Assembly: GCF_900100955.1 (NCBI RefSeq)
Contig: NZ_FNCC01000005.1
Span: forward strand, 62,001-126,000
Origin: Lentzea fradiae
GTDB lineage: Bacteria > Actinomycetota > Actinomycetes > Mycobacteriales > Pseudonocardiaceae
DNA length: 64,000 bases
Direction: 5' to 3'
Positions 33,557 through 52,199 of this stretch are shown in pieces; the stretch's first letter is position 1; every line of letters begins with the position of its first letter. The notes beneath the pieces were generated by a model. The model saw only the letters and a list, made by a program, of their open reading frames with translations, was not told the origin of the DNA and searched no databases. A program made the position numbers and the translations under genes.

Positions 33557-33589
33557 GTAGAGCTGCTGTAGAGGACTCGCGCGGAGGAT
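33557..33589 (+). promoter_or_regulatory. SARP-type direct-repeat promoter 1
   Basis: GTAGAG at 33557-33562 and again at 33568-33573 (11 bp apart), then 10 bp and GAGGAT (33584-33589) as a possible -10 box, 28 bp before the GTG of the flavin oxidoreductase gene. Same layout as at 49283, 52167 and (weaker) 47271. Confidence 0.7.
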
Positions 33590-33617
33590 TCCGCCAGAGT
33601 TCGACGGGAGGAAGACC

Positions 33618-35612
33618 GTGACGTTCGAGCACCTCTTCACACCGGTGACGGTCGGGCAGCACCAGATCCGCAACCGCGTGTTCATGTCGTCGGCGACGCT
33701 GATGTTCTCCAACGACGGCATCGTCACCGACCGGCACGTCGCGTACTACGCGGAGCGCGCCCGCGGCGGCATCGGCCTGATCATCCCGGAGGAGCTGGAG
33801 ATCCACCCGAGCGCCGCGGGTCTTCCGGTCAAGTGGCTGCACGGCTGGCCGGACCAGGCGGTGGCGGGTTTCCGCAAGCTGACCGACGCCGTGCACGCCC
33901 ACGGGGCGAGCATCTTCGCGCAGCTCGACCACGCCGGCACGATCCACGACCCGGCCGTCTTCGACGCTCCCGGTGCCGCGATGGCGCCGTCACCGTTCGG
34001 CCACCCCGGCCGGGAGACGCCGAAGGCGATGGAGCGCGACGAGATCGCCGAGGTGATCGAGTACTACGCGCGGTGCGCCCGCAACGCCGTCGAGGGCGGC
34101 TTCGACGGCATCGAGATCCACGCGGCGCACGGGCACCTGCCCGCCCAGTTCTTCTCGCCGCTGTCGAACTTCCGCACCGACGAGTACGGCGGGTCGTTCG
34201 AGAACCGGATGCGCTTCATGCTGGAGGCGCTGGAGGCCGTGCGCGGTGCCGTGCCGCACGGCTTCCCGGTGGGTGTGCGCATCAGCCTGCACGAGTTCGC
34301 GCCGGGCGGCCTCGACTTGGAGGGCACCATCGAGGTGGCCAAGGCGATCCAGGCCGCCGGTGTCGACTTCTTCGACCTGTCCGCCGGTCGCCCGCCCTAC
34401 AGCTACCAGCGGTCCATCCCGACCGCGGACCAGCAGCCGGCCGCGCACCTGCGCGACATGGCCGCCCAGTTCCGCGCGGAGGTGCCGGGCACGCCGACGT
34501 TCCTCATCGGACGCGTCGTCGACCCCAAGGTCGCCGAGGACGTGCTGGCCAAGGGCCAGGCGGACATGGTCGGCATGATGCGGGCGCACGTCGCCGACCC
34601 GGAGATCATCAACAAGACCAAGCAGGGCCGCGCGGACGAGGTCCGCTACTGCGTCTCCTGCAACCAGGAGTGCTTCGCCCGCGTCGCGTCGGGCCGCCCG
34701 ATCGCCTGCATCCAGAACCCCGCCACCGGCCGGGAGCTGACGCTCGCGATGTCGCGGCTGCGGCGTGCGGAGAAGGCCAAGCGGGTGATCGTCGTCGGTG
34801 GCGGACCGGCCGGCATGGAGGCCGCCTGGATCGCCGCCGCGCGGGGCCACGACGTCGAGCTGTACGAGGCCGCCGGCGAGCTGGGTGGCCAGGTGCGCTG
34901 GCACGCCAAGGCCCCCGACCGCGCCGAGTTCGGCAACATCGTCGAGAACCTCAAGAACCAGCTGCGGGTGCACGGCGTCAAGGTGCACCTGGGCGTCCGG
35001 CTCACGGCCGACGACCTCGTCGAGGCCGGTGCCGACGTGACGATCGTGGCGACCGGGTCCAAGCCGCGCGTGCGCGACGCGTTCGCCGAGTGGCGCCCGG
35101 ACCTGCCGCACCTGCCCGGGTTCGACACGGCCGACCTGTACACGTCGTGGGACGTCATGTCCGGCGAGCGGCCCATCTCCGGCCGGGTCGTCGTCCTCGA
35201 CGGCGACGGCAGGCACGAGGGTGCCGCCGTGGCCGAGAAGCTCGCGGCCCTCGGTGTCGAGCTGCACGTCGTGACGCCGTTCCCGCAGTTCGCGCCCGGA
35301 CTCGTCCCGTCGCTGGAGTTCGCCTCCTCGCTGGGCAGGGTGCTGCGCGGCGGTACGTCGATCAGCACGACGAGCCTGCCCACCGCCGTCGAGGGCCGCA
35401 CCGTGCGGTTCCTGCAGACCGCGACGGGTGAGGAGTCGGTGATCGAGGACGTCGACGCGGTCGTCGTGCTCGGCGGCAAGGTCCCCGACGAGGACCTCTA
35501 CTTCGCCGTGCTGGACCGCCTGCCCGAGGTGCACCGCATCGGTGACTGCGTGCAGCCGCGCCGCATCGCCCAGGCGATGTACCAGGGCCACAAGATCGCG
35601 CGCGAGATCTGA
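33618..35612 (+). CDS. Old-yellow-enzyme/2,4-dienoyl-CoA-reductase-like flavoprotein
   Basis: 664-residue FMN/[4Fe-4S]/FAD reductase. The N-terminal OYE barrel has [20 protein letters not shown] followed by [10 protein letters not shown]. The Fe-S site is [12 protein letters not shown] plus a downstream Cys in IACIQNP. The C-terminal Rossmann domain starts [21 protein letters not shown]. Relatives reduce dienoyl-CoA thioesters or demethylate amines (trimethylamine dehydrogenase). GTG start. A GTAGAG direct-repeat promoter precedes it. It presumably saturates or oxidises an intermediate. Confidence 0.88.
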
Positions 35613-35712
35613 CCATCTCGCGGATCGCGCCGAGGCAGCCCACGGGCCACTCGGTTGGACAGCTTGAACCTTGTTGCGAGCACGCACCCCAGGCGTGCCG
35701 GATGGAGGATAC

Positions 35713-37311
35713 ATGCGTCGGACCAAAGCCGTCGCCGCCGTTCTCGCCACAGTGGTGCTGGCGGCGGGTTGCGGTGGTGCTGCCGAGAGTGACACCGGAG
35801 GGGTCTCCACGGAGAGCCTGATGATGGGCACCCCGGTGATCCCCCAGAGCCTCATCCCGACCTCGGACCCGACGGTCACGCAGACGATGAGCATCCAGTA
35901 CGGGGAGACCCTGCTGAACTACGCCGAGCAGCCGGCGGGTGACTCGCAGATCAACGACCCGGAGAAGAACAGCCCCGGTCTCGCGGAGAAGTTCGAACGC
36001 ACCCCCGAGGGCATCGTCTACACGTTGCGCGACAACGAGTCGAGTGCCGGCAACAAGCTCGACGCCGACGACGTGATCTTCACCTACGAGCGCATGGTCG
36101 CCACCAAGGACCCGATCGGCACGTTCGTCATGACCGTGTCCGGGATGGACATGGCGAACCCGGTCACCAAGATCGACGACAAGACCGTGCGGCTCAACGG
36201 GTCCAACACCCCGATGGGCCTGCTGGCGGCGATCTTCCCGTACATGATGGTCCTCGACAAGGAGCTGGTGGAGAAGAACGCCACCGCCGAGGACAAGTGG
36301 GCGACCGACTTCACCCGCACCAACTCCGCGAGCTTCGGGCCGTACGACATCAAGAACTTCCGTCCCGGCGAGCAGATGGTGCTGCAGGCCAACGAGAAGT
36401 ACTGGGAGGGCGCGCCCGCGTTCAAGACCGTGACGCTGCTCGCGACCGCCACCCAGCAGGTCACCCAGCTCGTCAAGGCAGGCACGGTGCAGTGGGCGTC
36501 CTCGGTGCCCAACAGCTCCTACGCCGAGCTGAAGGACGACCCGAACCTGCACTCGACGGTCTCGGTCACGAACGTGCAGAACGTGCTGCAGCTCAACGAG
36601 ACCAACGTTCCCGCCCTCAAGGACCCGAACGTGCGCAAGGCGATCTCCAAGGCGATCGACAGGGACAAGCTCGCCTCGCTGGTCTACAACGGTGTGGCGA
36701 AGCCGGCGAAGGGCCCCGTCTCGTCCGCGACGCCGGGTCTCACGAACGTCAAGTCCGACAACTACGACTTCGACCTCAAGGCCGCCCAGGACCTGATGGC
36801 GAAGTCGGAGTTCAAGGACGGCTTCCAGCTGGAGATCGCGACGAGCAAGCAGTCGATCAAGCGCATCGACCCGGCCACGCTGGCGGTGTCGCTGCGGGAG
36901 ATGCTGAGCCCGCTCAAGATCGAGGTCAGCGTCCGCGAGGTCGCGAACCACGCCGAGTTCCAGGCCGCGCTGAGCAACCGCCAGTACGGCGCCTACCTCA
37001 GCAGTGAGGGTGCCGCGATCGCCGACATCGCCTACGGCATGTCGACCTACCACGTCACCACCACCACGCAGAACTACACCAAGCACGGGTCTCCCGAGCT
37101 GGACGCCGCGATCGCGGCTGCCTCGAAGGCCCCCGTGGGCGCGGAGCGCGACGCGCTCTCCGCCAAGGCCGTGGAGCTGTTCAACGAGCAGATGTACTCG
37201 GTCCCGCTGGTCGACGAGTCGGACGCCTACGTCGCCAACAAGGGGATCTGCGGTTTCGGGACCTACCCGTACATGGCGGTCAGCGCCGGCAAGCTCAAGC
37301 CCTGCGCCTGA
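35713..37311 (+). CDS. ABC transporter substrate-binding lipoprotein (family 5)
   Basis: 532-residue extracytoplasmic binding protein. The signal peptide ends in lipobox VVLAAGCGG, so Cys near residue 19 would be lipidated. Body of SBP family 5 (DppA/OppA/NikA type): [66 protein letters not shown]. The ATG at 35713 follows ATGGAGGAT. First gene of the importer operon. Family 5 proteins bind peptides but also glycosides, opines and aromatic derivatives; the ligand here is likely the island's substrate. Confidence 0.9.
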
Positions 37312-37342
37312 CCCACCCGCCACACCCGCTCTAGGAGGACTC

Positions 37343-38191
37343 ATGAGGATCGGTGCGCGCAGATCGGTGCCGGGCTGGGCCGTGGGCAGCGCGGTCGTCG
37401 CGTTCGTGCTGCTGTGGGCGGCGTTCGGGCCGCTGCCGCACGATCCTCGTTCTCCTGCGCTCTCCTCGGCCAACCAGGCCCCCGGCGGGGACTTCTGGTT
37501 CGGCACGACGGAGTCCGGTGTGGACGTGTTCTCCGGTGTCGTCGCGGCCTCGCTGTCGACGCTGCCGATCGCCTTCGCCGGGGTGCTGGCCGGACTGCTG
37601 GCCGGCACCGCGGCGGGCATCGCCCTCTCCGGGCACTCTCCCGTCCAGGAGGGCTTCATGCGCCTGGTGGACCTGTTCCAGAGCTTCCCGGTGATCCTGG
37701 TGGCCATCGTCGTCGTCGCACTCGCCGAGGGCGACAGCGTCAACTTCTGGCTCACCGCCGCGATCGCCGTCATCAACTTCCCGATCTTCCTGCGCATCGT
37801 CCGCGGCAGCGCCCTGGTGGTGCGCACCGAGCGGTACGTCCTCGCCGCCGAGGTGATGGGCGCCTCCCGCTGGAGGGTCGCGCTGCGGCACATCGTGCCG
37901 AACGTCTCGAACGTCGTGCTGGCCCAGGCGTCGCTGTCGATCGGCTTCGGCATCATGGCGATCGCGTCGCTCGGCTACCTCGGCATCGGCTCCGCGCCGC
38001 CCGAGCCGAGCTGGGGCGCGTTCATCCGCGAGGGCGCCGACAAGCTCGGCGACGGCCGCTGGTGGATGGTCGTCTTCCCCAGCCTCGCGATCTGCCTGAC
38101 CGTGCTGGTGTTCAACATGATCTCGCGCAGCATCTCCAAGGCGGGCGCGCCGAGCGGTCAGGCCGCGGCCGACCAGAAGGTGAGCGCGTGA
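37343..38191 (+). CDS. ABC permease, DppC type
   Basis: 282-residue inner-membrane subunit of a dipeptide-type importer with six hydrophobic segments. The EAA loop is visible in VLAAEVMGASRWRVALRHIVPN. ATG after AGGAGG; the stop overlaps the next ATG by 1 nt (TGATG). Such importers need a DppB-type partner. None lies in this operon, but one is encoded at 50138-51367. Confidence 0.9.
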   Translation: MRIGARRSVPGWAVGSAVVAFVLLWAAFGPLPHDPRSPALSSANQAPGGDFWFGTTESGVDVFSGVVAASLSTLPIAFAGVLAGLLAGTAAGIALSGHSPVQEGFMRLVDLFQSFPVILVAIVVVALAEGDSVNFWLTAAIAVINFPIFLRIVRGSALVVRTERYVLAAEVMGASRWRVALRHIVPNVSNVVLAQASLSIGFGIMAIASLGYLGIGSAPPEPSWGAFIREGADKLGDGRWWMVVFPSLAICLTVLVFNMISRSISKAGAPSGQAAADQKVSA

Positions 38192-39165
38192 TGACCGCAC
38201 CACTGCTGGAGGTCTCGGACCTCACCGTGCACTACCAGACCGGGCACAGCACGGTCGTCGGCACCTCGGGCTTCACCGTGAGCGCCCAGCCGGGCGAGAT
38301 CATCGCCGTGGTCGGCGAGTCGGGCTCCGGCAAGTCCAGCGCCGCCGCCGGGATCATGCAGCTGCTGCCGGGTAACGCCGAGTCGACCGGGTCGGTCGTC
38401 CTGCGCCACGACGGCGAGGAGCACGAGCTCGTCGGCATGCCGGAGCGGGCACGCCGCCCGTTGCGCGGCACCGCGCTCAGCCTGGTGCCGCAGGCGACCG
38501 TCGGCGCCCTGCACCCCACCCGCCGCGTCAGCAAGCAGTTCGCGTCTCTTTTCCGCGCGCACAGCGTGCCGAAGGACGAGTGGACCTCTCGGGGTGTCGC
38601 GGCACTGGAGGCCGCGGGCATCGCGGACGCCGCCCGTGTGCTGCGGTCGTACCCGCACGAGCTGAGCGGCGGTCTGGCGCAACGCGTCGTGATCGGCCTG
38701 TCCCAGGCGATGTCGCCGTCGGTGCTGGTGGCGGACGAACCGACCTCCGCACTGGACGTGCGCGTGCAGCGGCAGGTGCTGACCGTGCTGTCGGAGACGG
38801 TGCGCGCCCGCCAGGCCGCGGCCATCGTCATCACCCACGACCTCGGTGTCGCGCGTTACTTCTGCGACCACGTCGCCGTCATGTACGGCGCGGTCATGGT
38901 CGAGTTCGGCCCGTCGGCCGCGATCTTCGACGCGCCGTCCCACCCCTACACCCGTTCGCTGCTGTCCGCGTCGACCGCGCGCCGCGCCGACTCCAGCCGT
39001 CCCGCCACGCGGGTGAAGCGGCGGCTGACCGAGGAGAGCGTGGCGGCCCGCTGCCCGTTCTTCGACGCGTGCGGGCACGGCGCGGGAACGGTGTGCGAGC
39101 AAGGACTTCCCGGCTGGCAGGAGCTGGACGGCGGACACCGGGCGCGGAGGAGCTGCGATGCGTGA
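38191..39165 (+). CDS. ABC ATPase, DppD type
   Basis: 324-residue nucleotide-binding protein. Walker A is GESGSGKSSAAAG, the signature is LSGGLAQRVVIG, Walker B is VLVADEPTSALDV, and the switch His is in VITHDLG. The C-terminal oligopeptide-ABC extension carries Cys residues (CPFFDACGHGAGTVCEQGLP), as usual for DppD-type subunits. Overlaps both neighbours, so it is translationally coupled. Confidence 0.92.
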   Translation: MTAPLLEVSDLTVHYQTGHSTVVGTSGFTVSAQPGEIIAVVGESGSGKSSAAAGIMQLLPGNAESTGSVVLRHDGEEHELVGMPERARRPLRGTALSLVPQATVGALHPTRRVSKQFASLFRAHSVPKDEWTSRGVAALEAAGIADAARVLRSYPHELSGGLAQRVVIGLSQAMSPSVLVADEPTSALDVRVQRQVLTVLSETVRARQAAAIVITHDLGVARYFCDHVAVMYGAVMVEFGPSAAIFDAPSHPYTRSLLSASTARRADSSRPATRVKRRLTEESVAARCPFFDACGHGAGTVCEQGLPGWQELDGGHRARRSCDA

Positions 39166-39937
39166 GGAACCCGAGCTGATTCGCCTCGACGAGGTGCGCA
39201 AGACCTACACCAGGCCGGAAGGCGCGGTGCACGCGCTCAAGGGCCCGTCGTTGTCGGTGCCGGCGGGGCACCGCCTCGGCCTCATCGGCGAGTCGGGCAG
39301 CGGCAAGTCCACCATCGCCCGGCTCGTCATGGGGGTCGAGTACGCGGACTCCGGGACCGTGTCGGTGCTCGGCACCCCGATGTCGCGGGGCATGTCGCGC
39401 AAGGACCTGCTGGCCGTGCGAGGCCGGATGGGCGCGGTCTTCCAGGAGCCCGTCGAGTCGCTCAACCCGCGGTCGCGGATCTCGTCGGTCCTGGCGGAGC
39501 CGCTGCACATCCACCGCCGCGACCTGTCCCGCTCGGAGGTCGCCGACCGGGTCGCCGAGGCGATCACCACGGTCGGCCTGTCGACGGATTACCTGAACCG
39601 CTCGCCGCGGATGCTCAGCGGTGGCGAGGCGCAGCGCGTGGCCATCGCCCGCGCCCTGGTCAACGACCCCGCCCTGCTCGTGCTCGACGAACCCACCTCC
39701 GCGCTGGACGTGTCGGTGCAGGCGGAGATCGTGGCGCTGCTGGGTGAGCTCGCGGAGGGCTCCTCGGTCGGCTGGCTCTTCATCACCCACGACCTCACGG
39801 TCGCCGCGGCCGTGAGCGACACCATCGCGGTGATGTCGAGCGGGGACATGGTCGAGCTGGGGGAGGCGGCCCAGGTGCTCGAACAGCCCAGCCACCCCTA
39901 CACCCGCGAGCTGCTCGCCGCGGCACTGACCTGGTGA
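39158..39937 (+). CDS. ABC ATPase, DppF type
   Basis: 259-residue second ATPase of the importer. Walker A is GESGSGKSTIARLVMG, the Q-loop FQEPVESLNPRSRI, the signature LSGGEAQRVAIA, Walker B LLVLDEPTSALDVS, and the H-loop FITHDLT. It is shorter than typical DppF because it ends soon after HPYTRELLAAAL. Overlaps the DppD-type gene by 8 bp; the IclR gene follows directly. Confidence 0.92.
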   Translation: MREEPELIRLDEVRKTYTRPEGAVHALKGPSLSVPAGHRLGLIGESGSGKSTIARLVMGVEYADSGTVSVLGTPMSRGMSRKDLLAVRGRMGAVFQEPVESLNPRSRISSVLAEPLHIHRRDLSRSEVADRVAEAITTVGLSTDYLNRSPRMLSGGEAQRVAIARALVNDPALLVLDEPTSALDVSVQAEIVALLGELAEGSSVGWLFITHDLTVAAAVSDTIAVMSSGDMVELGEAAQVLEQPSHPYTRELLAAALTW

Positions 39938-39948
39938 GGAGAGAACCG

Positions 39949-40716
39949 ATGGAACTGATCGAGACCAGAGGCAACGAGACCGGCCGCAAGACGCTGTCGG
40001 TGCTGCTCTGCTTCACCCCCGAACGTCCTCTGTGGAGCGTCGCGGAGATCGCCGCGGAGCTGCGGCTGTCGACGGCGACGGCCTACCGGCACGTCGGGCT
40101 GCTCAAGCAGATGGGCCTCCTGGCGGGCAGCAGGCGCGGCTACCGGCTCACGTCGAAGGTCGAGATGCTCGGCGAGGCCGCGCGGGTCCGCCGGGACGTC
40201 ATCTCCGACGTCGCGCTGCCCGTGATGGCACGCCTGCGCGAGGCCGTCGACGAGAACGTGCTGCTGGCGGTGCGCAGCGGCGACCACGTCCTCGCGGTGC
40301 GCAAGCTGGAGTCCCGCAGCCCGGTGCGGATGCGGTTCGGCGAGGGCAGGCCGATGCCGCTGCACCGCGGCGCGCTCGGCCGGGTGCTGCTCGCCGACCT
40401 CCCGGTCCGCGAACGCGCGGCCTACCTGGAGCGGACCGGTCACGACCTGGCCACGCTGCGGCACGGCCCGTTGTCGACGGCCTCGCTGGACGCCGTGGCG
40501 CTCGCGGGTTTCGCGGAGAGCTTCGAGGAGATCGACGCCGGCGTGTGGGGAGTGGCCGCTCCCGTGCGGCGGTACGGCAGGGTGGCGGGCGTCCTCGGCC
40601 TGGCCGCCCCGCTCGACCGCACCGACTCGATGCGCCGCGGCCACATCCTGCGGCTGCTGATCAACGCGGCCAGGGAGATCGAGCGGCAGTCCTCCGCCAG
40701 TCGTTTCACCGCCTGA
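39949..40716 (+). CDS. IclR-family regulator
   Basis: 255 residues. N-terminal winged helix (residues 10-70: LSVLLCFTPERPLWSVAEIA, LRLSTATAYRHVGLLKQMG). C-terminal IclR effector domain (MPLHRGALGRVLLADLP, VAAPVRRYGRVAGVLGLAA). The ATG at 39949 is preceded by GAGGAGAG; GTG 39934, inside the ATPase gene's end, is possible. IclR proteins often control aromatic-acid catabolism. Its position at the end of the importer operon suggests feedback on the island. Confidence 0.88.
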   Translation: MELIETRGNETGRKTLSVLLCFTPERPLWSVAEIAAELRLSTATAYRHVGLLKQMGLLAGSRRGYRLTSKVEMLGEAARVRRDVISDVALPVMARLREAVDENVLLAVRSGDHVLAVRKLESRSPVRMRFGEGRPMPLHRGALGRVLLADLPVRERAAYLERTGHDLATLRHGPLSTASLDAVALAGFAESFEEIDAGVWGVAAPVRRYGRVAGVLGLAAPLDRTDSMRRGHILRLLINAAREIERQSSASRFTA

Positions 40717-41199: not shown

Positions 41200-41946
41200 T
41201 CAGAAGCGTTCGAGCAGCGATCCGTGCCCGGTGAGCTGGTCGTCGATGCCCGCGGTGCGCAGGGCGTGCCACGCGGTGGCGGCGTTGATCGCGATGACCG
41301 GCTTGCCGATCTCGGTCTCCAGCCGTGCGGCCACCTCGACGGCCGGCAGGTTCGTGCCCGCCTGCACCAGTGCGTCCACATCGGAGGAGTTGACGTCCAG
41401 GAACGCCTTGCGGACGTCCTCGGCCGGGACGTCGGCGATGTTGGTGGCGGACGTGCAGGCGAGGCCCTGCACCGCGTGCACCTCGTAGCCGAGCTCCTCG
41501 AAGAAGAGCCGGACCTGCTCGTCGCCGACGGGCTGGTACGGGGTGATGATGCCGATCTTGCGGGCACCGACCTTGGTGAGCGCCTCGTGGCACGCGCCGG
41601 CGCCGGTGGTGACGGGCAGCCCGTCGCAGCGCTCCTTCACGAACGCCTCGAACTGGGCGTTGCCCTCCTTGCCGCCCCAGAAGGTCTCGGCGGACATGCC
41701 CATCACGATGCGGTCGGGACGGCACGTCATGACGTCCCGCAGCGCGCGGCCGAGCTCCTCGCGCAGCTCGACGAGGAACTGCTCGAACGACGCGTCGTCG
41801 GCCAGGTCCTCGTTGCGGATCCAGATGCGGCCCGCGTGCCAGGAGACCCCCGGCGGCGTCATCCGGTTGTACTCCGCCTCGACCGTGGTGTTGGTCGACG
41901 GCACGATCAGCCCCATCAGGGCTCGGGGGGACACGATGTTGGGCAT
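41200..41946 (-). CDS. Maleate isomerase/arylmalonate decarboxylase-like protein
   Basis: 248 residues of the Asp/Glu racemase superfamily. Opening LMGLIVPSTNTTVEAEYNRM and closing GKPVIAINAATAWHALR match maleate cis-trans isomerases and arylmalonate decarboxylases. The two positions that usually carry catalytic Cys appear as GMSAETF (Ser/Ala, residues 83-89) and QAGTNLP (Gly, near 197), so neither is Cys. A non-redox isomerase, decarboxylase or hydrolase activity of a different chemistry is possible. It is co-transcribed with the FAD/lyase fusion gene, 3 bp downstream of it. Confidence 0.78.
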   Translation of the reverse strand: MPNIVSPRALMGLIVPSTNTTVEAEYNRMTPPGVSWHAGRIWIRNEDLADDASFEQFLVELREELGRALRDVMTCRPDRIVMGMSAETFWGGKEGNAQFEAFVKERCDGLPVTTGAGACHEALTKVGARKIGIITPYQPVGDEQVRLFFEELGYEVHAVQGLACTSATNIADVPAEDVRKAFLDVNSSDVDALVQAGTNLPAVEVAARLETEIGKPVIAINAATAWHALRTAGIDDQLTGHGSLLERF

Positions 41947-41949
41947 GGG

Positions 41950-44019
41950 TCACTCCTCCACAAGTGCGGTCAGTTCGGTCCACGGGGTGCGCTCGACGGA
42001 GACCGGCCCGCGGTCGGCGTCGGTGGCCGCGTAGGCGTCCCGCAGGCCCGCGGCCGCGGCGAGCAGGGCGGACACGGGCTGGATCACCAGCTCCACGCCG
42101 CAGTCGGCGAGCGTGGCCCGCGGCGGCAGCACGACGTCGTGCTCGTCGGCCTCGCTGCGGCCGAGCACCAGTGCGACGCCCGGCAGGTTCCGGTGCACCT
42201 CGCGCAACGTCTCGGCGTCCTTGACGCCCAGCACGAACACGAGGTCCGCCCCGGCCTCCGCGTACGCCTTGGCGCGGTCGATCGCGGCGGGCAGGCCCAG
42301 GACGCCGAGCGCGTCGGTGCGGGCGATCAGCAGGGCGTCGCGGCGCACGCGCCGGGCGGCGGCCAGCTTGGCCACCATCGCCTCGGTGGTCTCGATCTCC
42401 TTGCCGGGCAGGTGCCCGCACCGCTTCGGCGAGACCTGGTCCTCCAGCTGGATCGCGGCGGCACCGGCCCGTTCCAGGGCGATGACCGTCTCGGCGGCCT
42501 GCTCGGCGCCGCCGAAGCCGGTGTCGGCGTCGACGACGACCGGGACGGCCGCGGCGGAGGTGATGCGGGCGACCTGGGCGGCGAGGTCGGTGAGGCCGAG
42601 GAAGCCGCGGTCGGGCAGCCCCAGCGTGGCGATGCTCAGCGCGGCACCGGAGAGGAACACGGCTTGGTGCCCCGCCTGCCGCGCCAGCAATGCCGACAGC
42701 GCGTCGTGACAGCCGGGAGCCACGACCGGGCCCCGCGTCAGCAGCTCGGACAGCCGTCTGCCCGGTGACGCGGGGGAGCGCCGGGCGGCGTCGGTGAGTC
42801 GGCGCAGCTCCCGCGTGCTCGTCGCGAGCGACGTCATCAACGAGCTGCGGCGCAACGAGTTCCTGGTGGCCTCCGGGTCGTCCGCCGTCGCGGCGAGCCG
42901 GTCGTCCTGAGCCTTCTGCTTGACGGGGTCGCGTTCCTGCATCCGGTCGTAGTTCGCCTGCGCGGCGCGCTGGACGACCTGCATCGCCTCTTCCCGCCGC
43001 ACCAGCGAGTACGCCTCGGCGCACCGCCGTGCGTCCGCGCCGTCCAGCGCGGCCAGCACCGCGTCGACCGCGGCGACGGCGTCGTGGATGCCGCTGTTCA
43101 TGCCGAGTCCGCCGAGCGGGTTGTTGACGTGGGCGGCGTCGCCCGCGATCAGCACCCGGCCCCGTTCGAAGGTGGACGCCACCCGCTGGTGCACCTGGTA
43201 CAGCGACGCGTGGTCGATCTCGTAGTCGGAGTCCTTGGGCACCAGCCGCTTCAGGCGTTCCTGCACCCGTGCGGGCGCGACGGCGGCCTCGTCGGACTCC
43301 TCGTCGCCGACCGGCACCAGCACCCGCCAGTGCCGCGGCGTGCGCAGCAGCACGCCCCAGTCGACCGGGTCCGACAGGTAGCTCACCCAGGCCAGGCCGG
43401 GGATCTCGTCCTCCAGCGCGTACCGGGTGGAGATCACCAGGAACCGCTCGGGCAGCGTGATGCCGTCGAAGGCGATGCCGAGCGACTTGCGCACGACCGA
43501 GCTGGCGCCGTCGGCCGCGATCACCCACGGGCTCGTCCAGCTGGCCGCCCGGCCGTCGCCCTCGACGAACACGAGGGCGCGGTCGCCCGCGTCCTCGACC
43601 TTGACGACCGGTGAGCCGTAGACGATGCGCGCGTGCGGGAACTCGCGCAGGCGTTCGGCGATGATGCGGGTCAGGTTGTTCTGCTCGTTCTGCAGCCGGT
43701 AGGGGAACGCCGTCTCCCCGGCCAGTGCCGCGAGGTCGAACTCGGCGATGACACCGGCGCCCAGCCTGCGGTACTGGTAGAGCGGCGCGACCAGTCCGGT
43801 GCGGACCAGCTCGGCCGCGACGTCCAGCTCCTCCAGCAGCTCCAGAGTGGACGGGTGGAACGTGGACGCGCGCGACTCGCCGGACAGCTCGGCACCGGCT
43901 TCCAGCACGGTGACCCTCCGGCCCGCACGGGCGAGTTTCAGTGCCGCGACGAGACCGACGGGGCCTGCGCCCACCACGATCACGTCGGGCGAGTCCACGG
44001 TGGGATCGACGTCAGCCAC
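41950..44019 (-). CDS. Fused FAD aromatic hydroxylase and isocitrate-lyase/PEP-mutase-type lyase
   Basis: 689 residues in one uninterrupted frame. Residues 1-400 form a group A flavin monooxygenase: GAGPVG at 17-22, DG at 170-171, GDAAH at 293-297, as in phenol 2-monooxygenase or MHPCO-like hydroxylases. After a basic linker, residues 420-689 form an ICL/PEPM-superfamily TIM barrel: VVDADTGFGG near 497 (metal Asp) and KRCGHLPGKE at 532 (catalytic Cys loop), as in methylisocitrate, dimethylmalate or oxaloacetate lyases. All key residues are present in both halves. GTG start after GGAGGACCC. It heads a leftward operon with the isomerase-like gene. Presumably hydroxylation or ring cleavage is coupled to C-C cleavage of the product. 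Confidence 0.85.
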   Translation of the reverse strand: MADVDPTVDSPDVIVVGAGPVGLVAALKLARAGRRVTVLEAGAELSGESRASTFHPSTLELLEELDVAAELVRTGLVAPLYQYRRLGAGVIAEFDLAALAGETAFPYRLQNEQNNLTRIIAERLREFPHARIVYGSPVVKVEDAGDRALVFVEGDGRAASWTSPWVIAADGASSVVRKSLGIAFDGITLPERFLVISTRYALEDEIPGLAWVSYLSDPVDWGVLLRTPRHWRVLVPVGDEESDEAAVAPARVQERLKRLVPKDSDYEIDHASLYQVHQRVASTFERGRVLIAGDAAHVNNPLGGLGMNSGIHDAVAAVDAVLAALDGADARRCAEAYSLVRREEAMQVVQRAAQANYDRMQERDPVKQKAQDDRLAATADDPEATRNSLRRSSLMTSLATSTRELRRLTDAARRSPASPGRRLSELLTRGPVVAPGCHDALSALLARQAGHQAVFLSGAALSIATLGLPDRGFLGLTDLAAQVARITSAAAVPVVVDADTGFGGAEQAAETVIALERAGAAAIQLEDQVSPKRCGHLPGKEIETTEAMVAKLAAARRVRRDALLIARTDALGVLGLPAAIDRAKAYAEAGADLVFVLGVKDAETLREVHRNLPGVALVLGRSEADEHDVVLPPRATLADCGVELVIQPVSALLAAAAGLRDAYAATDADRGPVSVERTPWTELTALVEE

Positions 44020-44228: not shown

Positions 44229-47135
44229 TTACTGCTCGGCGGACCGCATCCGGTTGTAGACGAGCCGGGCAGCCTCGTGGCGGCCCAGTTCGTTGTAGCG
44301 GCGCATGAGGTCACGGGCGAGCTCGGTCCGCCACGGGTCGGCGTCGAAACACCGTTCCATGACCCGGAGCTCCTCCTCGGGATCGTCCGATCTCCTGGTG
44401 AGGTCGAGCAACCGTGCGCCGACGCGTTGCCGGTGCCGCACCAGCTCGTGCGCGGCGGACTCGACCCACGGCTCGTACCGGTCGGAGGGGAGAAGCTCCC
44501 GGCAGGAGGCGTCGAAGAGCGCGGAGAGCTCCTCGCGCGTCGCCTCGGCTCCCTCGCACACCTGGCGCAACCGGACCAGGTCGCACGTGTCACCCGGAGG
44601 CAGGACCAGTTGGTACGTCGAGGAGTTCGAGACCACGTACCGCGAGTCGACGCCGCGGCCGAGATCGGGTTCCAGCGCGCGGCGCAGCCAGTACACCGCG
44701 GTGTTGAGGCCCCGTTGCGCGGCCTCCGCGGTCTTCTCCTGCGACCACAGCAGGTCGGTGATCTCCTCGACGTGCAGCGGGCGTCCCGTCACGAGCAGCA
44801 GCTTGAAAAGCTGCCTGGCTCTTCGTCTTCCCCACGCCGCCGTGGGCATCGGCGTCCCGTCGCGCATCACCGTGAACCCGCCGAGCACCGAGACGTCCAG
44901 CCTCGGGGCCACCGGCGCGGCCGGCTCGGCGGGAGCGGGCGGGGGAGCGGAGACGTGCCGGCGTGCCCGCGTCGCCAGGTGCCGGTTGGACTTCTCGCAG
45001 TCCTCCAGCGCCAGCGCGGCGAAACGGGCGGCCTCGTCGCGGTGCCCGGCGGCGGCGAGCGCGTCGGCCAGCTCGGCACGGGTCCAGGTGATCTCGTGCC
45101 GGTAGCCGAACGCCAGCGCCGACTCGTGGGCGGTCTCCACGAGCCGCAGGTCGGCGTCCCGCCCGGCGCAGGCCAGCTCGATCTCCGCCGCGAGCAGGTC
45201 GAGCTGGTGCGCCCGCCAGATGAACATCCCGTCGGCCTGGTGCCGCCGCAGCGTGCCGAGCAGGGCGCGTGCCTGCTCCGCCCGGCCCTCGCGCAGGTCG
45301 AGCCGCGCCTGCAGCAGGTCGAACCACCCGGCGTTGAACTTGGTCATGCCGCGTTCGGAGGCGGCCTCACGGCCCCGTTCCACCCACTCGCGGCACTCGT
45401 CGGGCCGGCCGAGGTCCCACAGCACCAGCGCCCCGTAGGCGAGGACCACGGGGAGGCGGCTCAGCGGGTCGCTGCGCTCCATCAGCCGCGCAGACACCTG
45501 CAACTGGTTCAGCGCGCCGGTGAGGTCGCCGTCGCACCGTCGCCCGTACACCGCGTCGACCGCCGCGTGGTAGGCCGTGAACGGGAGGTTGGACTGCGCC
45601 TGCGGGTGTTCGGTCGCCCGGCGCCGCATGCGCTCGGCTTCCTCGTCGCGGTTCGCGAGCAGCAACGACTGCCAGACGCACAGGTCGACGAACGGCTGCC
45701 ACTGGTCGTGCGGGTCGATCGGGGCGACCGGGTGGTCCGATCGCGGCCGGATCGGCTGGTTGAGCGTCGAGCTGGCGAGCCAGTAGGCCGACAGCGACGC
45801 CTCGGCGGCCTTGCCCTCGCGCGCGTAGCTCTCCCGTGCGCGCAGGAAGGCGGCACGTGCCTCGGTGAGGTAGCCGCTGTGCATGTCGACGATGCCCTCG
45901 ATGTGCGACAGCGCCGGGTTGTCCCGCAGCTGCGACTCGGGCAGGCCCGCGAGCCACTCGCCGACCTCGCTGATCCGGCCCTGCTCCACCATCCGCGGCG
46001 CGCGTTCCCGCAGCGCGTCCGCGACCTCGGACCAGTCGCCCGCCTGGATCAGGTGGTGCACGGCCTCGGCCTCGTCACCCTCACGCCGCCACGCCTGCGC
46101 GATGGTGCGGTGCGCGTCCCGCACACCCTCGACACCGACCCTGGCGCGCAGCATGTCGGCGAGCACGATCGCGAGCGCCCGGTGGTAGCGGACGCGCACA
46201 CCCTGCCTGCCCACGGGCAGGACGAACGAGTTGACGCGCGGCGCGGAGACCAGCAGGGCACCGGCGGCGGGGCCGAACGCGTGCGCGCACACCGCGGGTT
46301 CCAGCTCGCGCATCAACGAGGTGCGCTGGACGAAGTCCGCGAGCTCCGGGTCCTCCATCAGCTTCGTGCCGAGCAGCACGGGCGCGCGGTGTTCGAGCAG
46401 GCGCCGCAACGCGACGTGGATCGGGCGGCGGGAGGCGGCGATCTCCTGGATCGCGGACGGCCACCCGTCGAGGTCGGCGGTGAGCTCGACGGCGACCCGG
46501 CGGCTCACGCGCCGGTCGTTGGCCGCGAGCACCTGCTGCGTCTCCTCGGGCGTGAACGCGAGGTCGTCGGGTCCGATGAGGACGAACCGGTCGTGCGAGG
46601 ACTCGGCCGTCCACGGCAGGTCGATCAGGAAGCGGGACAGGCACACCAGCCGGCTCTGCGTGCGGGCGGGGAACGCCAGCACCTCCAGCAGGGTCGTCAT
46701 GCTGCCGGACGGTCCCAGCACGTGCATCCCGTCGAGCACGAGGTGCACCGGCTCCCGCACGCGCGCGAGGGCCGCGCGTGCGAGGTCGGCGAGCTGGTCG
46801 AGATTCGCCTCGTCCCCCAACGGGAACGTCACACCCGTCAGTTCCGGGTGCCTCCGTGCCAAGGCGTGGAACACGTTCCGCAGGAACGTCGACGGAACGT
46901 GGTCGGCCTGTCGCAGCCGGTACCAGACCCAGGGTGAGCCTTGGTGTTCCGGCGTGAACTCCTTGGCGAACGTGGTCTTCCCGTAGCCCGAGGGGGCTTC
47001 CACGGCCACGATCCGCGCCGACGCCAGCGCCGGGTCCACGCGCGGGAGCCTGGGGAACACCACCGCGTCCCACCGGCCTGCCCGTACCTCGTGACCGAAC
47101 GTCACTTCTGCTTGCGGATATGTGGTTCTTCGCAA
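44229..47135 (-). CDS. MalT-like STAND ATPase with C-terminal SARP DNA-binding module
   Basis: About 968 residues. The N-terminal third is a STAND NTPase: Walker A VEAPSGYGKTTFAKEF near residue 45 and Walker B LVLDGMHVL near 130. A long TPR-like helical sensor region follows. The last 225 residues start LDVSVLGGFTVMRDG and contain an OmpR-type winged helix (AWGRRRARQLFKLLLVTG, EEITDLLW, GLNTAVYWLRRALEP) and a BTAD-like helical repeat, i.e. a SARP module at the C-terminus. The TTG at 47135 after GGAGGGG is my choice; GTG 47105 is possible. It is divergent from ferredoxin-P450 and is the obvious candidate to bind the GTAGAG direct repeats. Confidence 0.85.
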   Translation of the reverse strand: MRRTTYPQAEVTFGHEVRAGRWDAVVFPRLPRVDPALASARIVAVEAPSGYGKTTFAKEFTPEHQGSPWVWYRLRQADHVPSTFLRNVFHALARRHPELTGVTFPLGDEANLDQLADLARAALARVREPVHLVLDGMHVLGPSGSMTTLLEVLAFPARTQSRLVCLSRFLIDLPWTAESSHDRFVLIGPDDLAFTPEETQQVLAANDRRVSRRVAVELTADLDGWPSAIQEIAASRRPIHVALRRLLEHRAPVLLGTKLMEDPELADFVQRTSLMRELEPAVCAHAFGPAAGALLVSAPRVNSFVLPVGRQGVRVRYHRALAIVLADMLRARVGVEGVRDAHRTIAQAWRREGDEAEAVHHLIQAGDWSEVADALRERAPRMVEQGRISEVGEWLAGLPESQLRDNPALSHIEGIVDMHSGYLTEARAAFLRARESYAREGKAAEASLSAYWLASSTLNQPIRPRSDHPVAPIDPHDQWQPFVDLCVWQSLLLANRDEEAERMRRRATEHPQAQSNLPFTAYHAAVDAVYGRRCDGDLTGALNQLQVSARLMERSDPLSRLPVVLAYGALVLWDLGRPDECREWVERGREAASERGMTKFNAGWFDLLQARLDLREGRAEQARALLGTLRRHQADGMFIWRAHQLDLLAAEIELACAGRDADLRLVETAHESALAFGYRHEITWTRAELADALAAAGHRDEAARFAALALEDCEKSNRHLATRARRHVSAPPPAPAEPAAPVAPRLDVSVLGGFTVMRDGTPMPTAAWGRRRARQLFKLLLVTGRPLHVEEITDLLWSQEKTAEAAQRGLNTAVYWLRRALEPDLGRGVDSRYVVSNSSTYQLVLPPGDTCDLVRLRQVCEGAEATREELSALFDASCRELLPSDRYEPWVESAAHELVRHRQRVGARLLDLTRRSDDPEEELRVMERCFDADPWRTELARDLMRRYNELGRHEAARLVYNRMRSAEQ

Positions 47136-47270: not shown

Positions 47271-47303
47271 GTCGACCGAATGTAGATCGGTCGCCGCGAT
47301 GCT
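47271..47303 (+). promoter_or_regulatory. SARP-type direct-repeat promoter 2 (weaker copy)
   Basis: GTCGAC (47271-47276) and GTAGAT (47282-47287), 11 bp apart, then 10 bp and GATGCT (47298-47303). Same geometry as the sites at 33557, 49283 and 52167. It lies between the regulator gene and the ferredoxin gene. Confidence 0.5.
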
Positions 47304-47336: not shown

Positions 47337-47394
47337 TTCAGCAGAGTGACCGGTGCTGTACGCACAGTCGCCGGGGGTAGTGAGGGGCTCCGTG

Positions 47395-47709
47395 ATGTTC
47401 CGCTTGAGATCCGCAGACGGCAACGTGATCGAGCTCGAACCGGAGCACGGGGAGTCCGTGATGGACACCGCGGTCCGCGCGGGCGTCGACGGCATCGTCG
47501 GCGAGTGCGGCGGTTCGGCCTCGTGCGGCACGTGCCACGTGTTCGTGCCGGAGGAGCACCTCGCGCGCCTGGACCCGCCGGAGTTCGCCGAGGAGCAGAC
47601 CCTCGGCTACACGGCGGTGCCGCGCACGGACGCGAGCAGGCTGGCCTGCCAGGTCCCCGCGGCCGACGTGGACGGTGCCGTCCTGGACCTGCCCGAACGC
47701 CAGTACTGA
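47395..47709 (+). CDS. [2Fe-2S] ferredoxin
   Basis: 104-residue adrenodoxin/putidaredoxin-type ferredoxin. Cluster ligands: GECGGSASCGTCHVF (C-5x-C-2x-C) and the later Cys in RLACQV. The start MFRLRSADGNVIELEPEHGE at ATG 47395 follows GAGGGG. Located 38 bp before a P450 gene, so it is the likely electron donor. No ferredoxin reductase is encoded in the window; one must be shared from elsewhere. Confidence 0.9.
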   Translation: MFRLRSADGNVIELEPEHGESVMDTAVRAGVDGIVGECGGSASCGTCHVFVPEEHLARLDPPEFAEEQTLGYTAVPRTDASRLACQVPAADVDGAVLDLPERQY

Positions 47710-47747
47710 CCACAGTGGATCGATCCCATCGGCCGTCAGGAGGACGG

Positions 47748-48950
47748 ATGCCGCAGACTGCCAGCACGGGAGCGGTCGAGCTCGACCTCGACCCGTTCTC
47801 CGACGAGACCATCCACGAGCGCGAGCACTTCGACACCACCGTGCGCGAGACCGCTCCCGTCGTGTGGTTGTCCCGCTACGGGGTGTGGGCGACAGGACGG
47901 CACGCGGAGGGTGAGCAGGTCGTCACGGACTGGCAATCCTTCACCAACACCGCGGGCACCGGCCTGCTGGACACGCGCAAGAAGGAGAACTGGCGCGCGC
48001 CCAGCCCCGTCCTCGACGCCGACCCGCCGGACCACACCAAGTACCGCTCGGTCATCGCCTCGGTGCTGTCGCCCGTCATGGTGCGCACCTTGCAGGAGCA
48101 CTTCGAGGAACGCGCCGCCCAGATGGTGGACGAGCTGGTGGAGCGCCGGGAGTTCGACGCTGCCCAGGACCTCGCCCAGGCGTACCCGCTCGCGGTGGTG
48201 CCGGAGATCGTCGGCATGAGCCCGGAGGGCCGGGAGAACCTGCTGCCGTACTCGGAGCTGAACTTCCAGGCGATGGGCCCGCGCAACGAGCGCTACCGGC
48301 GCGCCGCCGAACGCGCCCAGGCCGCCGTGGACTACGCCGCCACCGCCGTGCTGCGCGAGAACCTGGACCCCGACGGCATCGGCATGCGGATCTACGCGGC
48401 CGCCGACGAGGGCACGGTCACCGAGCAGGAGGCCGCGCTGCTGGTGCGCACGTTCGTCGGCGCCGGAGTCGACACCACCATGTACAGCATGGGGCTCACC
48501 CTCCACGCGCTCATGACGAACCCGGACCAGTGGGCGCTGTTGCAGTCCGAGCCGGGACGGGCGCGCAACGCCTACGAGGAGGCGCTGCGCTGGGCCACCC
48601 CCGGCCCGTTGCTCGGCAGGACGACCGCGACCGAGGTGGAGCTCGGCGGTGTCACGCTCGGCGCGGGCCAGAAGGTCCTCGTGTGCGTCAACGCCGCGAA
48701 CCACGACCCGCGCCGCTGGGAGGACCCCGACCGGTTCGACATCACCCGGCGTGCCAACGGCCACCTGACCTTCGGCAAGGGCGTGCACGCCTGCGTGGGG
48801 CAGATGCTCGCCCGCGCCGAGGTGACGGCCGTGCTGAGCGCCTTCGTGCGGCGGGTGAAGTCGGTGGAGCTGGTGGGGGAGCCCGTCAAGCTCGACTCCA
48901 ACTGGCTGCGCGGCTGGGAGCACCTCCCCGTGCGGGTCACCCCGCACTGA
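47748..48950 (+). CDS. Cytochrome P450
   Basis: 400-residue soluble class I P450. I-helix GAGVDTTMYSMG, ExxR in EEALRW, and heme-binding FGKGVHACVGQML with the axial Cys. The N-terminal LSRYGVWATGRHAEGEQVVT and DADPPDHTKYRSVIASVLSP recall the CYP199-type enzymes that oxidise substituted benzoates, e.g. O-demethylation; this likeness is from memory. ATG after AGGAGGACGG. Co-transcribed with the ferredoxin. It would perform the first oxidation of the imported substrate. Confidence 0.9.
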   Translation: MPQTASTGAVELDLDPFSDETIHEREHFDTTVRETAPVVWLSRYGVWATGRHAEGEQVVTDWQSFTNTAGTGLLDTRKKENWRAPSPVLDADPPDHTKYRSVIASVLSPVMVRTLQEHFEERAAQMVDELVERREFDAAQDLAQAYPLAVVPEIVGMSPEGRENLLPYSELNFQAMGPRNERYRRAAERAQAAVDYAATAVLRENLDPDGIGMRIYAAADEGTVTEQEAALLVRTFVGAGVDTTMYSMGLTLHALMTNPDQWALLQSEPGRARNAYEEALRWATPGPLLGRTTATEVELGGVTLGAGQKVLVCVNAANHDPRRWEDPDRFDITRRANGHLTFGKGVHACVGQMLARAEVTAVLSAFVRRVKSVELVGEPVKLDSNWLRGWEHLPVRVTPH

Positions 48951-49057: not shown

Positions 49058-49104
49058 ACGCGGGGGCCCCGCGTATCACTGGAGGGAACGCGGGGCCCCC
49101 GCGT
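49058..49104. terminator. 17-bp perfect GC hairpin
   Basis: acgcgggggccccgcgt (49058-49074) pairs with 49088-49104 over 17 bp with a 13-nt loop; each arm is itself nearly self-complementary. Probably terminates the ferredoxin-P450 transcript; no T-run. Confidence 0.6.
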
Positions 49105-49213
49105 TCCCGACGGGAAACACGAAAGAGAGTCGCGAGCTGGGCGGGGCGTTACGGACAGCACTTGTCGAAGCAGCACTGAGAACGTGCCCGTTCTGCGGGA
49201 GTCACGGGCGCGC

Positions 49214-49253
49214 GACGCGGTCCCGCCCGTCCGCCAACGGGCGGGGCCGCGTC
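49214..49253. terminator. Second large GC hairpin before cupin promoter
   Basis: 49214-49230 pairs with 49237-49253 (17 bp, one G-U) around a 6-nt loop. It would isolate the cupin promoter from upstream transcription. Confidence 0.55.
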
Positions 49254-49282
49254 TCCGGCGCTCGCGTCGTGGAGACCGCGTT

Positions 49283-49315
49283 GTAGAGACCGCGTAGAGC
49301 CGCCGGTCCTACGGT
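49283..49315 (+). promoter_or_regulatory. SARP-type direct-repeat promoter 3
   Basis: GTAGAG at 49283-49288 and 49294-49299 (11 bp apart), then 10 bp and TACGGT (49310-49315), a good actinobacterial -10 hexamer. No -35 consensus. About 105 bp before the cupin start. Confidence 0.72.
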
Positions 49316-49420
49316 CATCGCCACCAGAGCCGAGTCGTCACCGACTCCAGGCGGTGGCCAGCCACATCCGGATGTCGAGTCAGATCCGGCCGATCCCCGG
49401 CCGGCCAGGGGGTGCAGACG

Positions 49421-50089: not shown

Positions 50090-50137
50090 CCGTCCACGGC
50101 AGGGCCCCAGCGATCGAAGCGGATGTCAGGAGCCGAG

Positions 50138-51367
50138 ATGAGCACAGTGCGGGACGCCGAGCGGGAGACCACCCCGCCGGCTGAGGCGGACGCGGCCGCG
50201 CCGGCCGGACCTGCCGGGAAGGCGGCGCCGAAGGGCGCACGGGTGAGCAGCCTGCGGTACGTGCTCGGCAGGCTGGTCTTCATCCCGTTCGCGGCCTTCG
50301 TCGTGCTGACGATGAGCTTCTTCTTCGTCAACCTGGTCCCGAGCGACCCCGTGCGGTCGCTCCTCGGCGCGTTCGCGACCGAGGAGGAGGTGGCGCGCCT
50401 CAACACCGAGCTGGGGCTCGACCAGAGCCTCTTCGCGCGGTACCTCGACTACGTCGGCGACGTGTTCTCCGGGTCGATGGGCGCGTCGTACTACACCAGC
50501 ACACCGGTGCTCGACGACCTCGGCAAGCGCGTGCTGCCCACGGTGCTGCTGGTGCTGCTGGGCTTCGCGGTCGCGTGGCTGATCGGCGTGCTGCTGGCCG
50601 TCGTGATCGCCACGGCGAAGGGGCCCGTGAGCCGGGTGACCGACGGCGTCGTGTCGATGCTGCAGGCGATCCCCGACTTCGTGCTCGGCATCGTCGGCTC
50701 GCTGGTGTTCTTCTACCTGCTGGGCCTGGTGCCCGCCCCGGTCGGGCAGCTGCCGCTGGGCATCCTGCCGCCGGAGACGGTGACCGGGTCGATGGTCGTC
50801 GACGGCCTGCTGGAGGGCAACGCCAAGGCGGTCTCCGGCGGCGTGGAGATGATGGTGCTGCCCGTGCTCGCCCTCGGGCTGAGCAACTGCGTGATCTTCG
50901 CCCGCACGATCAGCGCGACGCTGCGCGAGGTGCTCGACGGCAAGTCGTCGGACTACGCGCGCTCGCTGGGCATCGGCAAGCCCACCGTCATCGTGCTCGC
51001 GATGCGGGCGTCACTGCTGCCGACCATCGCGGTCAGCGGCCTCGTGCTGGCCCACCTGTTCGGTGGCGCCGCCATCATCGAGCGCGTCTTCAACTGGCAG
51101 GGCCTCGGCCAGTGGGGTGTCGAGGGCGTCCTGCGCTCGGACCTCCCGGTGGCGCAGGGCTTCGTGGTCGTCGTCGCGACGATGGCGATGCTCGCCTACT
51201 TCGCCGCGGACCTGCTGATGTTCGCCGCCGACCCGCGGGTGCGGCACCAGAGGCTCAACCAGGCGGCCCTGCGCGCGGCCAAGCGCTCCCGGCGGATCGC
51301 CGAGTGGCGCTCGCGCCGGCAGGGCGAGGACAAGCAGGACGGACAACAGGATGACCAACTCAGCTGA
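50138..51367 (+). CDS. ABC permease, DppB type
   Basis: 409-residue inner-membrane subunit of a dipeptide-type importer. The classic DppB start YVLGRLVFIPFAAFVVLTMS, FFFVNLVPSDPVR and the EAA loop DYARSLGIGKPTVIVLAMRA are present, with six hydrophobic segments. It has a longer Ala/Pro-rich cytoplasmic leader and a basic tail. ATG 50138 follows AGGAG. It supplies the partner missing from the importer operon 11 kb upstream. The same direct-repeat motif lies before both units. Confidence 0.9.
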   Translation: MSTVRDAERETTPPAEADAAAPAGPAGKAAPKGARVSSLRYVLGRLVFIPFAAFVVLTMSFFFVNLVPSDPVRSLLGAFATEEEVARLNTELGLDQSLFARYLDYVGDVFSGSMGASYYTSTPVLDDLGKRVLPTVLLVLLGFAVAWLIGVLLAVVIATAKGPVSRVTDGVVSMLQAIPDFVLGIVGSLVFFYLLGLVPAPVGQLPLGILPPETVTGSMVVDGLLEGNAKAVSGGVEMMVLPVLALGLSNCVIFARTISATLREVLDGKSSDYARSLGIGKPTVIVLAMRASLLPTIAVSGLVLAHLFGGAAIIERVFNWQGLGQWGVEGVLRSDLPVAQGFVVVVATMAMLAYFAADLLMFAADPRVRHQRLNQAALRAAKRSRRIAEWRSRRQGEDKQDGQQDDQLS

Positions 51368-52136
51368 CCGCCTCTCCCCGCCGCTGGCGGGCAGGACGGT
51401 GATCGTGACCGGTGGCGCGGGCGGGCTCGGCAGGGCCTTCTCCCGCGGCCTGGTCGAGGCCGGCGCGCACGTCGCGGTGGCGGACCTCGACGTCGGCAGA
51501 GCCCGTGCCGTGGCAGCGGACATCGACCCTGATGCCGGTGTCGTGGACGGGTTCGCGCTCGACGTGTCCGAAGAGGACTCGGTGCGGGACTGCGTCGCCG
51601 CGGTGGCGGAACGGTGGGGCCGCATCGACGTCGTCGTGAACAACGCGGCGTTCCTCTCGGAGGCGCACCGCCGTCCACTTGAGACGTTCTCGGTCGACGA
51701 CTGGATGACCACCCTCAAGGTGAACGTCCTCGGTCCCGCCCTGATGGTGCGGGAAACCCTGCCGTGGCTTGCCAGGCAGGGCGGCAGCGTCGTCAACATC
51801 GGGTCGAGCACCGTGCTCAACGGAGCGCGCAACCTCGCGCCCTACATCTCCAGCAAGGGCGGCGTGAACGCGTTCACCAAGGCGGCGGCGAGAGAGCTCG
51901 GCGCCCGCGGCATCCGCGTCAACGTGGTGCACCCCGGCTTCGTCGACGTGCGGCCGGTGAACGACCCGCCCGCCGAGGAGCTCCCCGGCCACCAGGCCGC
52001 CATCGCGGCGCGCTGCATCCCCCGGCCGGAGCTGCCCGCGGACCTCGTCGGGGCGGTCGTGTTCCTCGCCTCGGACGCCAGCTCGTTCATCACGGGACAG
52101 ACCATCAACGTCGACGGCGGCGTGAACTTGCACTGA
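51351..52136 (+). CDS. SDR-family dehydrogenase
   Basis: 261-residue classical SDR. TGGAGGLGRAFSRGLVEAG at residues 20-38, VDV-type Asp for NAD preference in VADLDVGRA, VVNNAA, catalytic NIGSSTV...YISSK and a GQTINVDGGV C-terminus. ATG lies inside the 3' end of the permease gene (17-bp overlap), indicating coupling. Likely oxidises an alcohol intermediate of the pathway. Confidence 0.87.
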   Translation: MTNSADRLSPPLAGRTVIVTGGAGGLGRAFSRGLVEAGAHVAVADLDVGRARAVAADIDPDAGVVDGFALDVSEEDSVRDCVAAVAERWGRIDVVVNNAAFLSEAHRRPLETFSVDDWMTTLKVNVLGPALMVRETLPWLARQGGSVVNIGSSTVLNGARNLAPYISSKGGVNAFTKAAARELGARGIRVNVVHPGFVDVRPVNDPPAEELPGHQAAIAARCIPRPELPADLVGAVVFLASDASSFITGQTINVDGGVNLH

Positions 52137-52166
52137 GGTCCTCGTGAGCACCGCCGACCGTCCTGT

Positions 52167-52199
52167 GTAGACGGGACGTAGAGGGCGGCGACGGAGGAT
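52167..52199 (+). promoter_or_regulatory. SARP-type direct-repeat promoter 4
   Basis: GTAGAC (52167-52172) and GTAGAG (52178-52183), 11 bp apart, then 10 bp and GAGGAT (52194-52199), identical in spacing and -10 box to the site at 33557. 33 bp before the acetoacetate-decarboxylase-like gene. Confidence 0.7.

Follow-up and report, generated by a model that had tools for sequence, protein, structure and literature searches.

In the stretch of Lentzea fradiae DNA analysed here (64,000 nucleotides of contig NZ_FNCC01000005.1, positions 62,001 to 126,000; the window) lies an island of enzyme and transporter genes that also encodes a regulator with a MalT-like ATPase, tetratricopeptide repeats (TPR) and a C-terminal domain like that of the Streptomyces antibiotic regulatory proteins (SARPs). 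Four promoters of the island share a direct repeat, followed at a fixed distance by a weak -10-like box. We consider it probable that the island's own MalT-SARP regulator activates these four promoters through the shared repeat, and that together they make up a real and compact SARP-type regulon.

Four sites, a regulator and their neighbours

The sites and the regulator are as follows (N, any base; positions are those of the window):

33557..33589, + strand: site 1, GTAGAG-N5-GTAGAG-N10-GAGGAT, upstream of an operon for an OYE-family oxidoreductase and an ATP-binding cassette (ABC) transporter
47271..47303, + strand: site 2, the weakest, GTCGAC-N5-GTAGAT-N10-GATGCT, upstream of a ferredoxin-cytochrome P450 pair
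49283..49315, + strand: site 3, GTAGAG-N5-GTAGAG-N10-TACGGT, upstream of a cupin, B-type permease and short-chain dehydrogenase operon
52167..52199, + strand: site 4, GTAGAC-N5-GTAGAG-N10-GAGGAT, upstream of an acetoacetate-decarboxylase-like gene and a short-chain dehydrogenase gene
44229..47135, - strand: regulator with MalT-like ATPase and TPR and a C-terminal SARP-like domain, assigned by domain and fold matches

The four positions at which these sites had been placed by eye (33557, 47271, 49283 and 52167) are exact and all on the + strand, and the proposed spacing, with half-sites at a pitch of 11 base pairs (bp) and a hexamer starting 10 bp past the second half-site, holds in all four. 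Every site is intergenic and on the coding strand of the genes downstream. The half-sites all start with GT, and a pyrimidine (Y) stands directly 5' of each of the eight. The element common to the four promoter regions, a pair of YGTAGAG-like half-sites at an 11-bp pitch with a weak -10-like box 10 bp further on, is likely to be the operator of the island regulator. At site 1 the transcription start is predicted near 33596, which would give a 5' leader of about 22 nucleotides. At site 3 an extra GTGGAG word occurs 14 bp upstream of the first half-site (49269-49299), and the pair there is thus part of a longer near-repeat, GTGGAGACCGCGTT-GTAGAGACCGC-GTAGAG.

Other genes of the island are listed below.

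25049-25777: GntR regulator
33618..35612, + strand: OYE-family oxidoreductase using flavin mononucleotide or flavin adenine dinucleotide (FAD); best NCBIfam model mycofactocin OYE 2, below cut-off
35671..37311, + strand: ABC solute-binding protein, family 5
37307..38191, + strand: ABC permease, C type; start approximate
38191..39165, + strand: ABC ATPase, OppD-like; start approximate
39158..39937, + strand: ABC ATPase, OppF-like
39934..40716, + strand: IclR-family regulator, last gene of the site-1 operon
41200..41946, - strand: enzyme of the arylmalonate decarboxylase / Asp-Glu racemase superfamily
41950..44019, - strand: FAD monooxygenase fused to a phosphoenolpyruvate (PEP) mutase/methylisocitrate lyase
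47395..47709, + strand: 2Fe-2S ferredoxin
47748..48950, + strand: cytochrome P450
49421..50089, + strand: cupin (ChrR-like) protein
50123..51367, + strand: ABC permease, B type
51351..52136, + strand: short-chain dehydrogenase of the site-3 operon
52233..53048, + strand: acetoacetate-decarboxylase-like protein
53045..53809, + strand: short-chain dehydrogenase behind site 4

The statement that each site precedes a catabolic gene is therefore roughly right, with an OYE-family enzyme, the ferredoxin-P450 pair, the cupin-permease-dehydrogenase operon and an acetoacetate-decarboxylase-like gene behind the respective sites.

Exclusivity and register of the arrangement

A genome-wide search had been suggested with the original prediction, and when run with the full pattern (both half-sites, the 10-bp gap and the -10-like box) and no mismatch allowed it returned four matches in 8,508,028 bases, all of them in the island and on the + strand, and none elsewhere. 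The same pattern read backward gave 0 matches in the same genome, and 100 shuffled windows gave a mean of 0.00. Across the family, 25 of 297 genomes hold a match. The other 296 genomes contain 27 matches in total, with a maximum of 3 per genome, and no clusters; no pair lies less than 700 kb apart on one contig. Six of these 27 matches were examined. Two adjoin SARP genes, as judged by eye from translations (genomes G957 and G076), two fall within SARP neighbourhoods (G401 and G397), and two have no SARP in the surrounding 5 and 9.5 kb (G825 and G840). A weight matrix built from the four sites scores them at 29.6-32.9. When the window plus 34 kb of flanking sequence was searched for a fifth site, the next best candidate reached 14.4, a value that falls within the range of top scores from ten base shuffles (12.8-17.8). 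A candidate autoregulation site at 47372, on the minus strand in the region upstream of the regulator, scores 12.7, which is chance level, and is not claimed.

The -10-like box is the second line of evidence, and its register is independent of the letters of the half-sites. An xAnnnT box is found at N10 in all four sites, whereas at the remaining 11 offsets in the range 4 to 15 none of the four has it. Calculated from intergenic base frequencies, with a choice of six offsets, the probability of this register is about 2e-6 for the four sites or 9e-5 for the three strong ones, both figures being post hoc. Outside the element, identity between the sites is 0.23-0.35, compared with 0.29 expected; because the flanks resemble each other no more than random sequences of the same base composition would, the sites are not duplicated copies of one promoter.

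Care must be taken with the repeat itself, since the four matches could be a chance find picked out by eye from a large GC-rich window. The two exact 12-base matches had been called unlikely by chance, and this turns out to be only modestly so: allowing up to 2 mismatches, the window holds 4 copies of GTAGAG-N5-GTAGAG where 1.61 are expected, and 5 of 100 shuffles also reach 4. A recurring A/T-rich hexamer repeat at spacing 11 appears in one of 60 resampled windows, but the real window has such a repeat at four further spacings in the range 7 to 23 as well. Genome-wide, the half-site pair with one mismatch is found at 52 places, against 71 for the backward control, so the repeat alone is not enriched and exclusivity belongs to the whole arrangement. 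The mismatch-free form GTAGA-N6-GTAGA occurs at four places in the genome, three of them in the island. The shuffle count, the repeats at other spacings and the one-mismatch pair count speak for chance, but the joint -10 register, the placement of all four sites between genes on the coding strand, the lack of any other match in 8.5 Mb, the absence of a cluster in 296 other genomes and the presence of the same word beside SARPs of the genus (below) speak against it, and we regard a chance origin as very unlikely. The weight of the case rests on the -10 register, the intergenic place and strand of all four sites, the drop in matrix score between the weakest site (29.6) and the next candidate (14.4), and exclusivity in the genome.

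The regulator and the SARPs of the genus

The regulator starts at 47105 (958 amino acids, as in the database copy) or at 47135 (968 amino acids). Its C-terminal part, about residues 730-958, consists of an OmpR-type DNA-binding domain followed by a BTA domain, the make-up of a SARP protein. The remainder is a sensor half like that of MalT and of the large ATP-binding regulators of the LuxR family (LAL), with the ATPase recognised by sequence and fold and the TPR part by fold. No LuxR-type C-terminal DNA-binding domain was found among its Pfam matches, and the C-terminus matches SARP folds. The list of fold matches is dominated by TPR proteins, with AfsR at rank 49. Domain pairs of the MalT-SARP type are already present in annotation, as seen from one database protein name. 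A literature search of titles and the starts of abstracts, with subscription papers mostly outside its scope, found among the papers listed neither a SARP controlling a catabolic cluster nor a MalT-SARP chimera.

The protein is phylogenetically rare. Among 397 genomes of the order (E 1e-40) it is found in one, its own. Scanning of the contigs of GTDB species found no orthologue, and of 210 plasmid records retrieved with the regulator, 0 cover 80% of it. A protein search, which scored only the 7995 candidates sharing most words, did yield three orthologous proteins on contigs of 4.7, 17.9 and 20.2 kb, including ones at 59% and 46% identity.

The word itself can be followed beyond the island. 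Exact TGTAGA-N5-TGTAGA gives 9 matches, or 6 places, in 5 of 24 genomes of the genus, and all six places are within 5 kb of a SARP gene by profile search, a count made without a formal control for SARP proximity. The profile was built from 13 seeds, including the SARPs of G410, G957 and G076 and the family of the island regulator, so that re-finding those proves nothing; one of the six SARP genes is itself a seed. In the 34 kb flank of the island the profile has one weak match (7.7e-7). Three of the six places divergently adjoin orthologous SARPs of the AfsR type. These belong to a second SARP clade, in which all eight members (the query and seven relatives at 63-75% identity) carry two or three TGTAGN repeats 11 bp apart. 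The repeats are just upstream of the SARP gene and read away from it, and are followed by TANNNT after 8 bp in six members and 9 bp in two, with the gaps read by eye. None of 20 homologues at 41-44% identity has such repeats. The word is thus used beside SARPs in the genus, a result that does not draw on the island sites, even if it was they that suggested the word to search for. In two genomes, G404 and G410, the genes read from the clade repeats resemble, by eye, small secreted lectin-like proteins.

The proposal that the sites are of SARP type is therefore well supported by the SARP-like C-terminus and by the TGTAGN repeats at a SARP of the genus, while the geometry it relied on is close but not identical, with a gap of 10 bp and not 8. 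Half-sites on one strand at 11 or 22 bp are expected of SARP operators, and all four sites have 11 bp.

The sites could be real operators and yet be bound by a different protein, either another SARP whose gene lies outside the island or a response regulator of the PhoP/OmpR type, which also reads direct repeats 11 bp apart. The genome has other SARP-domain genes, one of them with a TGTAGA-N5-TGTAGA pair 2.3 kb away, and the AfsR box is also read by PhoP, according to the account in PMC10972967. On the other hand, the full pattern is confined to the island, which encodes its own rare SARP, and no protein of the window's own genome belongs, at E 1e-60, to the clade in which the TGTAGN repeats are conserved. 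We consider a second regulator unlikely. The pair just mentioned (C23:114187-114221) has a TAGATT box and sits just before a gene that by eye resembles those for SPFH-domain proteins.

Known systems and a proposed mechanism

Parts of the system resemble several known regulators. For example, MalT of Escherichia coli matches the island regulator in its ATPase half by sequence and fold and in its TPR half by fold, and governs a catabolic regulon, as the island regulator probably does. MalT boxes are direct repeats, and the C-terminus of MalT is a LuxR-type DNA-binding domain; in the island regulator a SARP-like domain takes that place. EmbR of mycobacteria is the best PDB sequence match of the island DNA-binding domain, but has an FHA domain and is not known to have a MalT-like part.

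Another parallel is AfsR and its afs box in Streptomyces coelicolor. In both systems two direct repeats at an 11-bp pitch cover a poor -35 close to a poor -10, and one protein combines a SARP fold with ATPase and TPR parts. In AfsR, however, the SARP domain is N-terminal, whereas here it is C-terminal and the ATPase is MalT-like; the island word is YGTAGAG, compared with CGTT(T/C)ATCG, and the island targets look catabolic. In the AfsR structure described in PMC10936776, a pair of SARP protomers occupies the two adjacent 11-bp repeats at the -35 region and supports sigma region 4; these repeats start at -40 and -29, and R92 contacts the third-place T. The AfsR repeat begins with CGTT in the account of PMC10972967, comparable to the pyrimidine and GT at the head of the island half-sites. 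The SARP-LAL proteins PimR, SanG and PolR also join a SARP to a large ATP-binding half and have heptamers with 4-bp spacers, and PimR requires two heptamers, 4 bp being the classical spacer, as described in PMC5930380. Their SARP is N-terminal, their word is CGGCAAG and their targets are antibiotic gene clusters, points on which the island, with its likely catabolic targets, differs.

From the domain make-up we propose that a ligand derived from the substrate, together with ATP, may act on the MalT-like part of the regulator, which would then set the C-terminal SARP domains free or bring them together as oligomers. A pair of these domains could occupy the two half-sites next to each other, at the -35 region and along the same face of the helix, and would hold sigma region 4 at promoters with a poor -35 and -10, as shown for AfsR. 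If the hexamer is taken to be -12 to -7, an assumption, the repeats would start at -40 and -29, matching those of AfsR. The sites with their register and their exclusivity in the genome, the domains of the regulator and the occurrence of the word beside another SARP of the genus are observed; binding, activation, the ligand and a single degradation pathway are what we infer here.

Several findings weigh against this picture. The Pfam BTAD model scores 19.1 bits on the regulator, below its cut-off of 22.1. Of the AfsR contact residues, W74, T88 and R94 are kept, but K95 is R and P79 is T, with Q48 not clearly aligned, and the base-contacting R92 is W in the regulator and its three nearest relatives (four of four family members). 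The gap from hexamer end to box, 10 bp in all four sites, is 1-2 bp longer than in the genus relatives (8-9 bp) or the published SARP rule (8 bp), and the first T is absent from three of the four -10-like boxes. The box gap, the change at R92 and the missing T may reflect a somewhat different fit to DNA, or a weaker case. Alignment searches for orthologues, covering 24 genomes of the genus and 394 of the class, returned the regulator itself and otherwise homologues that are partial and distant. To these are added the other SARP-domain genes of the genome as potential alternative binders, the one-mismatch pair count already given, and the fact that the pattern was drawn from the sites themselves, so that the null counts are not fully independent and the tests are partly post hoc.

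We lean, by a modest measure, towards a more specific picture, in which a MalT-type metabolite sensor whose LuxR head has been swapped for a SARP head lets the mechanism by which antibiotic activators adapt sigma at direct repeats serve as the substrate-inducible switch of a phylogenetically rare catabolic regulon. The operator word would be YGTAGAG-N4-YGTAGAG, with 17 bp separating the start of the repeat from that of a weak -10 box. The SARP operator rule is already known; the newer part is a MalT-SARP hybrid driving a probably catabolic regulon. The papers covered here present SARPs chiefly as regulators that activate antibiotic clusters, and AfsR is described there as regulating primary metabolism as well. 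A compact regulon that has a single regulator and four promoters bearing the site, with no further match in the genome, would offer a clean test of how a MalT-like sensor gates a C-terminal SARP domain. Such a regulon could also reveal what the island degrades, and the TGTAGN repeats of the second clade are a further operator word open to searching.

Two readings of control by other factors bear on the island. The repeats could mark promoters that an alternative sigma factor recognises, or they could be operators for IclR or GntR, the two local regulators, whose genes end the site-1 operon and lie at 25049-25777, respectively. Regulators of the IclR and GntR families recognise inverted repeats, and a sigma factor recognises a single box near -35 rather than a pair of words on one strand at an 11-bp pitch. 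Because these modes of recognition differ from the pair seen here, and none accounts for the SARP link in the genus, we hold such an origin to be most improbable. The MalT-SARP regulator, in turn, need not govern everything: the claim that one activator switches the whole island was too strong. A matrix scan and a GTNGA-pair search found no comparable site upstream of the operon beginning at 25867 (a CoA transferase, hydantoinase-like subunits, an isochorismatase, an enzyme like hydroxymethylglutaryl-CoA lyase and a short-chain dehydrogenase), of the minus-strand 44019-41200 operon or of the regulator gene, and GTNGA pairs at spacings of 10, 11, 12 and 22 were absent from eight other upstream stretches of the island; IclR and GntR regulators are also present.

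An importer of the B/C permease type requires both permeases, and the C-type permease behind site 1 and the B-type permease behind site 3 are likely partners in one importer; among the window genes scanned, which are part of the total, no other peptide-type permease was found. Co-expression of sites 1 and 3 would make sense because the two permeases of the importer appear to be split between them. The island likely breaks down a compound, its enzymes presumably forming one degradation pathway. With respect to the narrow sense of SARP, tied to a secondary-metabolite cluster, the neighbours here are an OYE enzyme, a P450, a CoA transferase, hydantoinase-like subunits, a lyase and a peptide-type importer. 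A scan with the island P450 found no relative. The fusion of FAD monooxygenase and PEP mutase was considered as an oddity and set aside, as it is common, being shared by many of the matches listed, mostly named from actinobacteria. Elsewhere in the window, GTTGAC/GTTGAT words recur at positions 3255-3345, some 20 bp apart and in part forming palindromes (GTCAACGTTGAC), in what looks like an operator or iteron-like array.

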